A DNA stretch of 64,000 bases from a bacterium. GTDB lineage: Bacteria > Campylobacterota > Campylobacteria > Campylobacterales > Sulfurimonadaceae. The translations under genes and the position numbers were made by a program. Location: contig JAHJJX010000036.1 in the NCBI GenBank assembly GCA_018822665.1, forward strand, positions 1 through 64,000. The letters are read 5' to 3'. The notes under the pieces were generated by a model that was given only the letters and a program-made list of their open reading frames with translations, ran no database searches and was not told the DNA's origin. Below, piece by piece: positions 12,681 to 63,525 of the stretch. How positions within the stretch are numbered: position 1 is the first letter of the stretch; every line of letters begins with the position of its first letter.

Positions 12681-12902
12681 ATGAGAGATTTTCACTCTAT
12701 TATAGAGAAGTTGAAACTATATTTATCGACAAGAAAAAATATAAAAATATTGGACAAAGACGTTGCGCATGCACTTCAAATTTCACAAGCAAACTTTGCT
12801 ACCATAAAGAGAAGAAATTCAATTCCGTATGAAAGCATTTTACATTTTTGCAAAAGAGAGGAACTTTGCTGCAGTGAAATATTTTTTGATAAAAGCAGTT
12901 AA
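12681..12902 (+). CDS. Small helix-turn-helix protein, CI-repressor-like
   Basis: 73 residues from the ATG at 12681, which has AAGGAG seven bases upstream; an in-frame ATG at 12639 would add 14 residues with no ribosome site. The helix-turn-helix reads KDVAHALQISQANFATIKRRNSIPY, like the N-terminal domain of phage CI-type repressors, followed by a short tail with two adjacent Cys. There is no oligomerisation or peptidase domain. It is a probable DNA-binding regulator of unknown target. Its stop overlaps the convergent dnaX stop by four bases. Confidence 0.65.
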   Translation: MRDFHSIIEKLKLYLSTRKNIKILDKDVAHALQISQANFATIKRRNSIPYESILHFCKREELCCSEIFFDKSS

Positions 12903-14584
12903 ATTTTAGACTGTATCGTTATTTTTGTCGCTTCAAATAATTCTATCGCTTTTTTAACCATCGGCTCTTCTTTGATGTTGACTCCATCAATCTCTTTTGT
13001 TGATTCATCGCTTTGAGAGCAGTTTGTCACACAGCTTGCACTTCCTCCAATCTCCGCATCTTCTATCATTGAAGTGCTTTGGGCATGCGCCATGAACGGT
13101 TGTTCATTTTTTTTTTCTTCAAGCTCTTGAGTGCAAGCAATCCCTTTAATCTGGGTTTCAAAGCCAAAAAGTTCTCTAACTAATTGTTTGATAGCAGGAT
13201 AACCATGTTTTAAAACTTGTTTGCACTCTTCGTCCGCACAACTCTCCCAGGTTAAAATGCCGTTTTCATACGAAATAAAATGAACACAGCGGATAAAACA
13301 CTCACCGAGTTCATAATTTCTATCTTTGATATTTGCAATGAGTTTGTGAAACATCTTGGCATGTGGAACTTCTTCGGCATGTGGAACTTCTTTGGCATGT
13401 GGAACTTCTTTGGCATGTGGAACTTCTGCTTCAGTCTTGGCGGGGGCGATGGTTTCGTTAATTGTCTTTGTTTGTGGCGGAGTTTGTATATTTACACGTG
13501 AGAGCTCAGGTCTTTGAATCTCTTTTTGCAAAGATTCTATCATTTGGTCAATCTCTTTGATGCGAAGAGCTTCAACCATTTTAAAAAATATCAATGAAAG
13601 GACAAAAGCACCATCCGCATTGATACTAAAAAGATATTTTGAATCACTAAGAATTCTAAAAAATCTATCTAAAACCAAGGTTGAAAACAGAGCGTCTTGA
13701 TTGTACATACGCTCTTTGAGGTAAGCAATAAGCTCGTCTACAACCATTTCCGCTTCATAATCTTCTAAAGTTTTGGTGTATTGAACAAGAAGGGCATAAT
13801 CTTTTGAAAACACTGCTTTAAAAAGTTCTGTAATAAAGTTAGGGTCAACAAGCCCTAGCATATCTGTAACCGTTTGTACATCCACGTGGTTTTTGGAGTA
13901 AATTATCGCCTGGTCAAGCAAGGTGAGCGTGTCTCTTAAGCTTCCGCTTCCGCTTCTTGCAAGTATCTCCAGCGCATCCGTCTCATACTCTATTTGCTCA
14001 AGATGAAGGATGTGTGCGAGATGCTCAACAATTTTATTCGAAGCGATACTCTTAAATCTGAAATGCTGGGTACGACTTAAAATAGTTGCCGGAAGTTTGA
14101 GCGGGTCTGTTGTCGCCAATATAAATTTAACATATTTTGGCGGTTCTTCAAGCGTTTTAAGCAAAGCATTAAAAGCCTCTTTCGTGAGCATGTGGACTTC
14201 ATCAATGATGAAGATTTTAAATCTTGCAGAAGAGGGTTTGTATTTTGTCTGTTCTATCAAATCTCTAATATCATCTATTTTTCTTGATGATGCGGCATCC
14301 ATCTCTACTATGTCCATGTGACGGTTTTCAAGTGCCAAAGTACAGTTTTGACAAACTCCGCAGGGCTTATGCGTCATACCTTTTTCACAAATGAGAGCTT
14401 TGGCAAATATGCGTGCCGTAGATGTTTTTCCGCTTCCTCGAAGACCTGAGAAAAGATACGCATGAGAGAGTCTGTTGGAATCAAGTGCAAGTGAAAGTGT
14501 TTGTGTTATTGTGTCTTGTCCTATCAGCTCATCAAAGCTGGAGGGTCTGTATTTTCTTGCTAAAACTTGGGAACTTTCTTTCAC
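12899..14584 (-). CDS. dnaX: DNA polymerase III subunit gamma/tau
   Basis: 561 residues. The AAA+ clamp-loader core shows Walker A GLRGSGKT (47-54), the four-Cys zinc site C66/C75/C78/C81, Walker B IIDEVHML (DEVH at 128-131) and sensor-type LATTDP and SRTQHF. After about residue 360 comes a poorly conserved linker and a tau-like tail. The linker carries four tandem hexapeptides EVPHA(K/E), codons 386-409, encoded by four 18-bp units of the dispersed word. Expansion of a repeat in a flexible linker should be tolerated. A further near-copy (GCATGTGGA preceded by A) is at about 14190 in the AAA+ core. No internal frameshift site like that of E. coli dnaX was noticed. Confidence 0.95.
   Translation of the reverse strand: MKESSQVLARKYRPSSFDELIGQDTITQTLSLALDSNRLSHAYLFSGLRGSGKTSTARIFAKALICEKGMTHKPCGVCQNCTLALENRHMDIVEMDAASSRKIDDIRDLIEQTKYKPSSARFKIFIIDEVHMLTKEAFNALLKTLEEPPKYVKFILATTDPLKLPATILSRTQHFRFKSIASNKIVEHLAHILHLEQIEYETDALEILARSGSGSLRDTLTLLDQAIIYSKNHVDVQTVTDMLGLVDPNFITELFKAVFSKDYALLVQYTKTLEDYEAEMVVDELIAYLKERMYNQDALFSTLVLDRFFRILSDSKYLFSINADGAFVLSLIFFKMVEALRIKEIDQMIESLQKEIQRPELSRVNIQTPPQTKTINETIAPAKTEAEVPHAKEVPHAKEVPHAEEVPHAKMFHKLIANIKDRNYELGECFIRCVHFISYENGILTWESCADEECKQVLKHGYPAIKQLVRELFGFETQIKGIACTQELEEKKNEQPFMAHAQSTSMIEDAEIGGSASCVTNCSQSDESTKEIDGVNIKEEPMVKKAIELFEATKITIQSKI
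13358..13429 (+). repeat. Four 18-bp tandem units, each containing GGCATGTGGAA
   Basis: Units start at 13358, 13376, 13394 and 13412 and are nearly identical (the word followed by CTTCTTC, CTTCTTT, CTTCTTT, CTTCTGC). They lie in the dnaX linker and encode EVPHAK repeats on the minus strand. This is local amplification of the dispersed word, not a CRISPR: there are no spacers. Confidence 0.95.
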
Positions 14585-17226: not shown

Positions 17227-18564
17227 CTACTGATTCGTATTCATACTTTCTAAAAACTCTTCGTTAGTAGGTTTTTTCTGCATAGTCGTATAAATGAATT
17301 TAAGTGCTTCTATTTCATTATCTTGTTTTTGCATCATTTGGCGAAGAATAAATACTTTTTGAAGTATTTCAGGACCGATAAGAAGTTCCTCTTTTCTTGT
17401 TCCTGATTTAAGAACATCAATAGCAGGAAAGATTCTTCTATCTGCGATTTTTCTATCCAGAACAACTTCCGAGTTGCCGGTACCTTTGAACTCTTCAAAG
17501 ATAACCTCGTCCATTCTGCTTCCTGTGTCTACAAGTGCCGTGGCGATAATCGTTAAGCTTCCGCCATTTTCTATATTTCTAGCCGCTCCGAAAAATCTTT
17601 TTGGTTTGTGAAGCGCATTTGCATCTACACCCCCAGAGAGCACTTTTCCGCTTGAAGGTGTTATGGTATTGTAAGCACGGGCTAAACGGGTGATGGAATC
17701 AAGAAGTATAACAACATCATGACCAAGCTCAACCCTTCTTTTTGCTCTTTCTATTACCATCTCGGCAACTTTAACATGGTTTTTTGCAGGCATATCAAAC
17801 GTGGAGCTGTACACCTCACCTTTGACACTTCTTTCCATGTCCGTTACCTCTTCAGGACGCTCATCCACAAGCAAAACCATCAAATCAATTTCTGGATGAT
17901 TGTGCGAAATACCATGTGCTATCTCTTTTAAAAGTTCCGTTTTACCACTTCTTGGAGGGGCAACGATAAGACCGCGCTGACCCTTGCCGATAGGAGAAAA
18001 AAGGTCCATCATGCGGCCTGTGAGTCTTTTTTCTTTATATTCAAGTTTGATTTGGTCGAGAGCGTAAAGTGGAGTAAGATTTTCAAAAAGAGGTCTTTTT
18101 TTACTTTCTTCTGGCGGAAGGTAGTTGATTGCTTCTATCTTGATGAGCGCGTAGTATCGCTCCTGATCTTTTGGCGGTCGCACCTGTCCCGTTACAACAT
18201 CCCCGTTTCTTAAGGCAAAGCGTTTGATTTGAGTGTTGGATACATACGCATCGTTGATACTCTCATTAAAACTTTGGTCTATGGAGCGAATAAAACCGTA
18301 ACCATCCGCCATTATTTCTAAAATACCGCTAAAGAGTATAAAACCGCCCTGCGCAACCTGCGTCTTTAAAATCTCAAAAATAACATCTTGTCTTTTAAGT
18401 TCGTTTGGATGTTCAATGTTCAGCTCTGTAGCGATTTGAACTAAGTCATAGATGCTTTTTGTTCTAAGTTCTTCTATCGTTGTGCCGTTTACGGGTGTAT
18501 GTGATCTTGTTTTAGCTTTAGAGAGCTTGCGTGGTTGTGGAGCTTGTGAAGTTTGTTCACTCAT
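17227..18564 (-). CDS. rho: Transcription termination factor Rho
   Basis: 445 residues. An N-terminal helical domain (to about 70), a cold-shock-like RNA-binding domain ([15 protein letters not shown]) and the hexameric ATPase core with Walker [10 protein letters not shown] (202-210), Walker [17 protein letters not shown] and the Q/R-loop region [25 protein letters not shown] are all present. The N-terminal extension ([19 protein letters not shown]) is basic and disordered. It is followed immediately by murI on the same strand. Confidence 0.97.
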
Positions 18565-61960: not shown

Positions 61961-62170
61961 ATGAAAATGAAATTTGAACTTCAAGATGATTATATAGAAT
62001 TGTTTAAACTTTTAAAAGTTTTAGACTTGGTTGACAGCGGTGCTCAGGCTAAAATGCTTATCGCTGAGGGGTATGTAAAAAGAAATGCAGAGGTTGAGCT
62101 TCGAAAAAGAGCTAAGATAATTTCCGGAGATACGATAGAAATAGCAGATGTTATTATAGAAGTTGAGTAA
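61961..62170 (+). CDS. S4-domain RNA-binding protein (YbcJ-like)
   Basis: 69 residues, essentially one S4 domain (LFKLLKVLDLVDSGAQAKMLIAEGYVKRNAEVELRKRAKIISGDTIEI). Likely binds structured RNA. The start could also be the second ATG six bases on. Overlaps the next gene by one base. Confidence 0.85.
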   Translation: MKMKFELQDDYIELFKLLKVLDLVDSGAQAKMLIAEGYVKRNAEVELRKRAKIISGDTIEIADVIIEVE

Positions 62171-62769
62171 TGAGAGTTTTAGTATTTTTAACACTCTTTT
62201 TTAGTTTTGTATTTGCCGACTTTTTTATAGTCAGTGAAGACAAGAAGGTGAAGATGACATCACTTGCAACCGGAAAGATAGATTTTTCCACATTCTCTGC
62301 AATCGCAAAAGTGGAGCGCGGAAATAAAGAACTTCATGCCATGGGCGATGAAATAGCTTTCAATCACAGACATCTGAATTTTCGCTTAGCTACGATTGAT
62401 TTGGTACAGTCAAACTATACTATTACGGAGTGGAGTGAAAAAGCGCAAGACAGCAGTAACGATTATTATATAAATTTTGCAGATTATACGCGTGAAGACG
62501 GAGTGATGCTTCAGCTTTTTTATAAAAACAAGTGGTATGCAGTGGTTCTTGGCGAGCCTTTGGAAATTTTACAAAAACTTTTTTCTCAAGATGGTTTAGA
62601 GGCAAAAGTTGCATTAGAGAAAATCAAAAGAGCAAGACTTGCATTTAAAGAGGATGAAATGCTTCAAAAGCTTGAGGCTAAGTTTGAGAGTTTAGCATTA
62701 AAGCAGATAGATAAAAATGCCAAATATAAAAAACAAGAGGCTGTTGACTTTAGCAATTTGAAAAAATAG
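62170..62769 (+). CDS. Exported protein of unknown function
   Basis: 199 residues with a signal peptide (MRVLVFLTLFFSFVFA). The mature part has strands then a charged helical tail (KIKRARLAFKEDEMLQKLEAKFESLALKQIDK). No family recognised. It ends 1 base before the paired-word hairpin. Confidence 0.55.
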   Translation: MRVLVFLTLFFSFVFADFFIVSEDKKVKMTSLATGKIDFSTFSAIAKVERGNKELHAMGDEIAFNHRHLNFRLATIDLVQSNYTITEWSEKAQDSSNDYYINFADYTREDGVMLQLFYKNKWYAVVLGEPLEILQKLFSQDGLEAKVALEKIKRARLAFKEDEMLQKLEAKFESLALKQIDKNAKYKKQEAVDFSNLKK

Positions 62770-62797
62770 TCGGCATGTGGAAAGTTCCACATGCCGA
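62770..62797. terminator. Terminator made of two facing copies of the dispersed word
   Basis: Thirteen-base arms (62770-62782 and 62785-62797) containing GGCATGTGGAA and TTCCACATGCC are perfectly complementary with AG between. On the minus strand the stem is followed by CTATTTTTTC, an intrinsic terminator for the DUF445 gene; on the plus strand it follows the stop of the opposing gene by one codon's distance. Confidence 0.85.
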
Positions 62798-62814: not shown

Positions 62815-63525
62815 TTACAATATCCTTGAGCTCAAGAGCCCGATAACTCCACCAAAAACTCCACCCCAGACAACAAGCCAGTCAAGATGTTCTTTGATTA
62901 ATTTTTGAACTATCTCTTTTACCATTTGAGAAGTGAGTTCATTCAGTCTTGCGTCAATTACATTTTCTATCGACAGAATCATGTCATCACTCAGAGATGA
63001 GTTTTGCATGTGTGCTTGCAGGGTGTCATTGAAGGCATCCGAATTTACTATCTTAATAACAGCATGTTTCATCTTTAAAGAAAACGGCTCACGAAGCCCA
63101 TTAAGAGCACTTTCTCCTCCAAACATTCCCAGCATCCCGCCAAAAGAGGATTCCATAACCGTTTTGCTGAGTGCATCAAAAGCAGGTGAGAAATCTGTTT
63201 CTTCTATAATTGGGGCGAGGTTTATTTTCTTTTCTTCACTTTTAAAGAAATTGTCCAGCTGTTCTCTTGTGAAAAATTCATTCATCATAAGTTTTTTTAT
63301 AGCACTTTTAAATGCTTCAAATCTTGCGGGAATCACCCCTGAACCATAAAGAAAAGGCACCTTTTCAAAGAGCATGTGGATTGCAAGTTGGTTCGTAAGC
63401 GCGCCCGAGAGAGCAAACAATCCGATGAAAAGCAAAGCGGAAGAAAACTCACCTTTTAATACAAATGACAAACCTATACAAACGACTGCTGTAAGGTTCG
63501 TTATAAAACTTTTATTGAATTTCAA
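62815..63525 (-). CDS. DUF445-like membrane protein
   Basis: 236 residues. Helices near both ends and a middle with LIGLFALSGALTNQLAIHMLFEKVPFLYGSGVIPARFEAFKSAIKKLMMNEFF, which is the DUF445 pattern; ends WGGVFGGVIGLLSSRIL. Unknown function. Terminated by the paired-word hairpin. Confidence 0.8.
   Translation of the reverse strand: MKFNKSFITNLTAVVCIGLSFVLKGEFSSALLFIGLFALSGALTNQLAIHMLFEKVPFLYGSGVIPARFEAFKSAIKKLMMNEFFTREQLDNFFKSEEKKINLAPIIEETDFSPAFDALSKTVMESSFGGMLGMFGGESALNGLREPFSLKMKHAVIKIVNSDAFNDTLQAHMQNSSLSDDMILSIENVIDARLNELTSQMVKEIVQKLIKEHLDWLVVWGGVFGGVIGLLSSRIL

Follow-up and report, generated by a model that had tools for sequence, protein, structure and literature searches.

The locus studied here poses the question of what two copies of an abundant sequence word do when they face each other just behind a gene. 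It lies near the end of the window (the whole stretch of DNA analysed, 64,000 nucleotides long), which is part of a genome of 2,507,095 bases in 44 contigs (G000), and a sequence-only reading had taken it for an intrinsic terminator made of two uptake-type words. The window bears out the geometry of that proposal, namely a perfect 13-bp palindrome with word copies starting at 62772 and 62785 in the 45-base gap between two convergent genes. The inverted pair occupies positions 62770-62797, without a strand of its own, and consists of two perfect 13-base arms, TCGGCATGTGGAA AG TTCCACATGCCGA, each containing one copy of the word, written here TTCCACATGCC or GGCATGTGGAA; a search of the window with the latter placed the copies at 62772-62782 on the plus strand and at 62785-62795 on the minus strand. 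To the left, a 199-aa ORF on the plus strand (62170-62769) ends at the hairpin with its TAG at 62767-62769 and has no match in Pfam at E 0.01; its start is at 62254 according to our home-made codon-score gene caller, whose stops are more reliable than its starts, and at 62170 according to the ORF tool. To the right, a convergent ORF of the DUF445 family (PF04286) occupies 62815-63525 on the minus strand, with its stop end at 62815.

The RNA of either strand is predicted to fold into a stem of 12 bp closed by a loop of 4 nt (-21.2 kcal/mol; z -7.6 relative to 200 shuffled sequences), a stable, GC-containing hairpin that sits after a gene and at which no Rfam family was found. On the minus strand the hairpin continues, as had been claimed, into CTATTTTTTC (62760-62769), a T-run that is the antisense of the last Lys-Lys codons of the plus-strand gene and overlaps its stop. 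A simple terminator scan flagged this strand only, leaving the plus-strand GATATTTAAC unflagged, and the U-tract of a Rho-independent terminator is likewise present on the minus strand only. At this site, the minus strand fits the definition of an intrinsic terminator as a hairpin plus T-run, and the plus strand does not. The DUF445 gene was located in 25 of 25 chosen genomes, and the pair was absent from all 21 other loci that gave a readable 3' flank of this gene, for which reason an argument from orthology was dropped for the site.

Beyond this site, the word is found throughout the genome. TTCCACATGCC occurs 334 times on the forward and 328 times on the reverse strand of G000, where the reversed control gives 0 and 1, and the window alone contains 21 copies of GGCATGTGGAA where 0.02 were expected. 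In the wider consensus, an A or G comes after TTCCACATGCC, often with a further A behind it. In a 284-kb sample of G000 we counted 93 ten-mer copies, 75 of them in genes and 18 outside, the latter fraction making up 9.5% of the sequence. A scan of the genus found at least 33 copies in 17 of 135 genomes (range 33 to 946) and at most 15 in all others; of 397 genomes sampled across the class, 31 belong to the genus, and none of the 366 outside it had more than five. The named records that carry the pair are, among the matches listed, mostly Sulfurimonas, Sulfuricurvum, Helicobacteraceae and Campylobacterales MAGs. Copy excess, equality of strands, lack of polarity and restriction to a clade are properties that the word has in common with DUS and USS.

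Close inverted pairs are far more numerous than chance would provide, 39 being present in G000 against about two expected (about 0.9 per orientation, reckoned from the 93 ten-mer copies in 284 kb). They are evenly split between the order GGCATGTGGA..TCCACATGCC (20 pairs) and its opposite (19), with the copies 0-12 bp apart, and the reversed control gave none; direct pairs occupy five separate places (10 hits), two of which are tandem arrays. Thirty-seven of the 39 pairs are intergenic and two of the 39 are no more than 20 nt away from a stop codon, the median distance from stop to pair being 14 nt. The intergenic pairs fall into 18 convergent, 16 tandem and 3 divergent gaps, where 2.4, 24.2 and 10.4 were expected by length (chi-square p=6e-25, with gap lengths scaled up from the 284-kb sample). 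Pairs of the first order occur in 12 of the 135 genus genomes, 11 of them word-bearing; the genome G009 has one pair although it is almost wordless. The proposed habit of pairing words at gene ends is therefore genome-wide, and the finding that would have refuted the sequence-only reading, a lack of further inverted pairs at gene ends, did not occur. It parallels the USS and DUS pairs described as terminators in Neisseria and Pasteurellaceae (Kingsford 2007, PMC1852404), with which it shares close inversion of an abundant word, rarity of direct pairs, enrichment in convergent gaps and formation of hairpins.

Several observations suggest selection on the hairpin itself. In G000, stems extend outward past the word by 2.30 and 2.53 bp, depending on the order, compared with 0.82 and 1.08 bp in random pairs of single word copies (p about 0.002 per order). 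For comparison we used other loci (L039-L118, at least 80) matching GGCATGTGGAA N0-6 TTCCACATGCC, including L039 (Chitinophagales) and L051 (Kineothrix), which are not Campylobacterota and were kept. Among the matches listed, their pairs in the order GG..CC extend by 1.94 bp against 0.79 (n=81, p<1e-4), and the few in the order CC..GG show no significant extension (n=6, p=0.17). Furthermore, the pairs recur behind the same genes: for genes at the 3' side of G000 pairs, 12 of 15 matches in other pair loci have a pair at the gene end, and for 5'-side genes 0 of 7 do (both among the matches listed), counts that express a shared place and not a rate of conservation, as these loci were fetched for having a pair. 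At 7 of the 39 G000 sites a related genome has a pair after the same gene (among the matches listed); these seven vary in stop distance, loop or flanks, and for the gene at L011 one relative carries the pair in the opposite orientation. Because stems reach beyond the word and pairs recur after the same genes with altered spacing, loop or orientation, the gene-end hairpins look selected.

Whether they are selected as classic intrinsic terminators, each a hairpin plus U-tract, can be judged from what follows them. We defined a T-run as five of six within 12 nt, excluded pairs within called genes and five pairs less than 250 bases from a locus end, and scored gene sides more than 100 nt from a stop as other sides. 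Gene-side T-runs were counted behind 7 of 48 hairpins of G000 and behind 12 of 108 of the other loci (among the matches listed), and other-side T-runs behind 2 of 26 and 7 of 58, respectively (the latter among the matches listed); matched gene ends used as controls have them in 12.9% and 13.0% of cases. A second measure gave 8 of 52 against 13.8% (p=0.90) in G000 and 10 of 118 against 10.6% (p=0.83) among the matches listed for the other loci. When the view was widened to 15 nt, G000 showed a weak trend towards tails (10 of 48 gene sides against 2 of 26 other sides, p=0.19). Such a reading also draws on the position of the pairs after stops, on the focal minus strand, where the 12-bp stem runs into CTATTTTTTC and which is among the few hairpin sides with a T-run, and on gene ends free of the word: 8 of 102 of these have a stem of at least 7 bp, and four of the eight carry a T-run past a similar short spacer, a tail that the focal minus strand resembles. 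Against it, T-runs are at background and the orientations are equal (20:19), so the pairs as a class are not classic intrinsic terminators. The difference from the pairs of Kingsford 2007 is considerable: gene-side A before or T after the pair number 2.75-3.33 of five bases in N. meningitidis Z2491 (PMC1852404, Table 4) and its pair orientations are 226:5 (Table 5), whereas here the tails amount to 0.56-1.33 of five bases in convergent and tandem sites of both sets (other loci among the matches listed). Intrinsic termination as the general function, as first proposed, is accordingly unlikely.

A role outside RNA would also account for part of these findings. Uptake drive together with palindrome-correcting mutation could create the pairs, with 3' gaps merely tolerating palindromes; this would agree with the missing U-tracts, and correction by template switching would be expected to extend stems past the word as well. 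It does not sit easily with the long divergent gaps, which hold 3 pairs where 10.4 were expected by length, or with the recurrence, among the matches listed, at the same gene ends of other species in differing sequence, and we consider it slightly less plausible still than general intrinsic termination. Another alternative is a function of the pair at the DNA level, for instance as an uptake site that is two-sided or bound by a dimer; recognition by a dimer would favour inverted pairs, and PMC3630211 takes up overlapping dyads in S. muelleri. Spacing, loop and orientation vary freely here, however, and in Neisseria an inverted arrangement leaves transformation unchanged, according to PMC2397512, which makes such a function highly improbable. 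A wider doubt concerns the word itself, which might be some other genome-wide signal (Chi-like, KOPS-like or protein-binding) or a mobile palindrome of the REP type. The literature searched gave no uptake experiment on this organism and no report linking uptake sequences with Sulfurimonas or Epsilonproteobacteria, in a search that covered few subscription papers; the best 20 of 379 matches to the letters of the word appear unrelated. The strands are nevertheless equal (334:328) and mixed along the sampled stretches of G000, G031 and G034, unlike those of polar signals, and replication polarity was rejected on this basis. A REP or BIME element was likewise discarded, as 75 of the 93 copies lie within genes and the paired form alone is extragenic. 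Moreover, 11-12 bases are long for a Chi site. We regard this alternative as doubtful, if the least improbable of the four.

The explanation that we prefer, with a probability of about 0.55, is that pairs of an uptake-type word have been recruited as hairpins of mRNA 3' ends, probably working with Rho, and that a minority may terminate transcription intrinsically. The many selected copies of the word in the Sulfurimonas-type genus would provide ready stem arms, and two copies lying inverted to one another behind a stop codon would be retained as strong RNA hairpins, which may form or protect mRNA 3' ends and keep convergent genes apart. Since most hairpins have no U-tract, transcription would most likely be terminated by Rho farther downstream and the RNA then trimmed 3'-to-5' as far as the hairpin; the minority with a T-run, the focal minus strand included, may additionally terminate intrinsically. 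Base composition behind the pairs is in line with this route. At tandem sites the 80 nt beyond the pair are C-rich and G-poor in G000 (p=0.047) and, among the matches listed, in the other loci (p=0.0003). C also exceeds G beyond the convergent pairs of the other loci (p=0.039, among the matches listed), the corresponding signal at the convergent sites of G000 being non-significant (p=0.19). Such C-rich downstream sequence speaks for hairpins at 3' ends that act together with Rho and, in a minority of cases, terminate intrinsically.

The nearest parallel outside the uptake systems is found in E. coli, where, according to PMC13289151, REP and other hairpins that protect Rho-dependent ends are also GC-rich, placed after genes and devoid of a U-tract, with C-rich, G-poor sequence downstream of the Rho-dependent ends; unlike these, the hairpins described here are pairs of a word whose single copies are mostly intragenic. 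For some tandem hairpins (3 of 16 in G000 and, among the matches listed, 10 of 37 in the other loci), the next start follows at a distance of less than 50 nt. As termination there would leave little room for a promoter, termination at every tandem site is doubtful, and such hairpins may instead stabilise intercistronic ends. Rho itself is encoded in the window, in a 449-aa open frame with the RNA-binding domain PF07497 at 18109-18330.

The origin of the word is a separate matter. Its abundance, strand symmetry, clade restriction, presence in genes and pair habit, together with ComEC and with the fact that species lacking it can have abundant words of another kind (for example CTCACGCA in G017 and G012), favour its reading as an uptake sequence. 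A wider reading is that Sulfurimonas-type Campylobacterota evolved an uptake system of their own, separate from those of Neisseria and Pasteurellaceae, with different words in different species and U-tract-free 3'-end hairpins that re-arise at the same gene ends; we hold this as a tentative proposal, a little short of even odds. G000 has competence machinery in the form of ComEC, prepilin-type proteins and a pilin cluster nearby. ComEC was found in G000 and in 123 of the 135 genus genomes and does not discriminate, being equally common in wordless ones. In the neighbourhood of comEC there are two or three genes for prepilin-like proteins (L257, 6525-8010, with matching places in L258-L275), and those of G000 are just upstream of what we take to be a PriA-like gene. 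In the sequences compared, the first pilin near comEC varies past its N-terminal part, and this variable pilin beside comEC is a possible candidate for the receptor.

Among the words of other species, CTCACGCA is a candidate second dialect, being present 57 times in 120 kb of G017, where 2.7 copies would be expected, and abundant in G012 too (loci L172, L173, L182, L183 and L291-L294). It seldom forms inverted pairs (17 in 11 of the 135 genomes), and in G017 these do not exceed the chance estimate, so that the pair habit was not borne out for other words, a point that counts against the uptake reading. Seven wordless genomes have many copies of words with ACATGTA, such as TTACATGTAA in G011 (loci L166, L167, L170, L171, L180, L181, L185, L187, L191, L199 and L295-L297); these words are near-palindromic and perhaps protein sites rather than uptake words. 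The weak-word genomes G067, G132 and G026 have no other strong word. The DUS dialects of Neisseriaceae (Frye 2013, PMC3630211) offer a similar picture, with an abundant, clade-restricted word that is missing in other species of the group, some of which have other abundant words. Those dialects share a CTG core and several were tested by transformation (PMC3630211), whereas the candidate words CTCACGCA (G017, G012) and TTACATGTAA (G011 and others) have little in common with TTCCACATGCC.

If the uptake reading is true, free-living, sulfur-oxidising Campylobacterota would represent a further origin of such words, besides the Neisseriaceae and Pasteurellaceae in which they are known, and would allow independent tests of how words spread. 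Furthermore, gene-end pairs without T-tails split two ideas that are confounded in Neisseria, namely that the flanks of the word supply the tail of a terminator and that a hairpin at a gene end is useful by itself.

The word is also found in short tandem arrays. At 13358-13422 of the window, four copies follow one another with an 18-base period and code for EVPHAK repeats, within an ORF on the minus strand (12899-14584) that, judging by its sequence, is presumably dnaX-like; similar arrays of 17-18 bases are present in G031 and G034.
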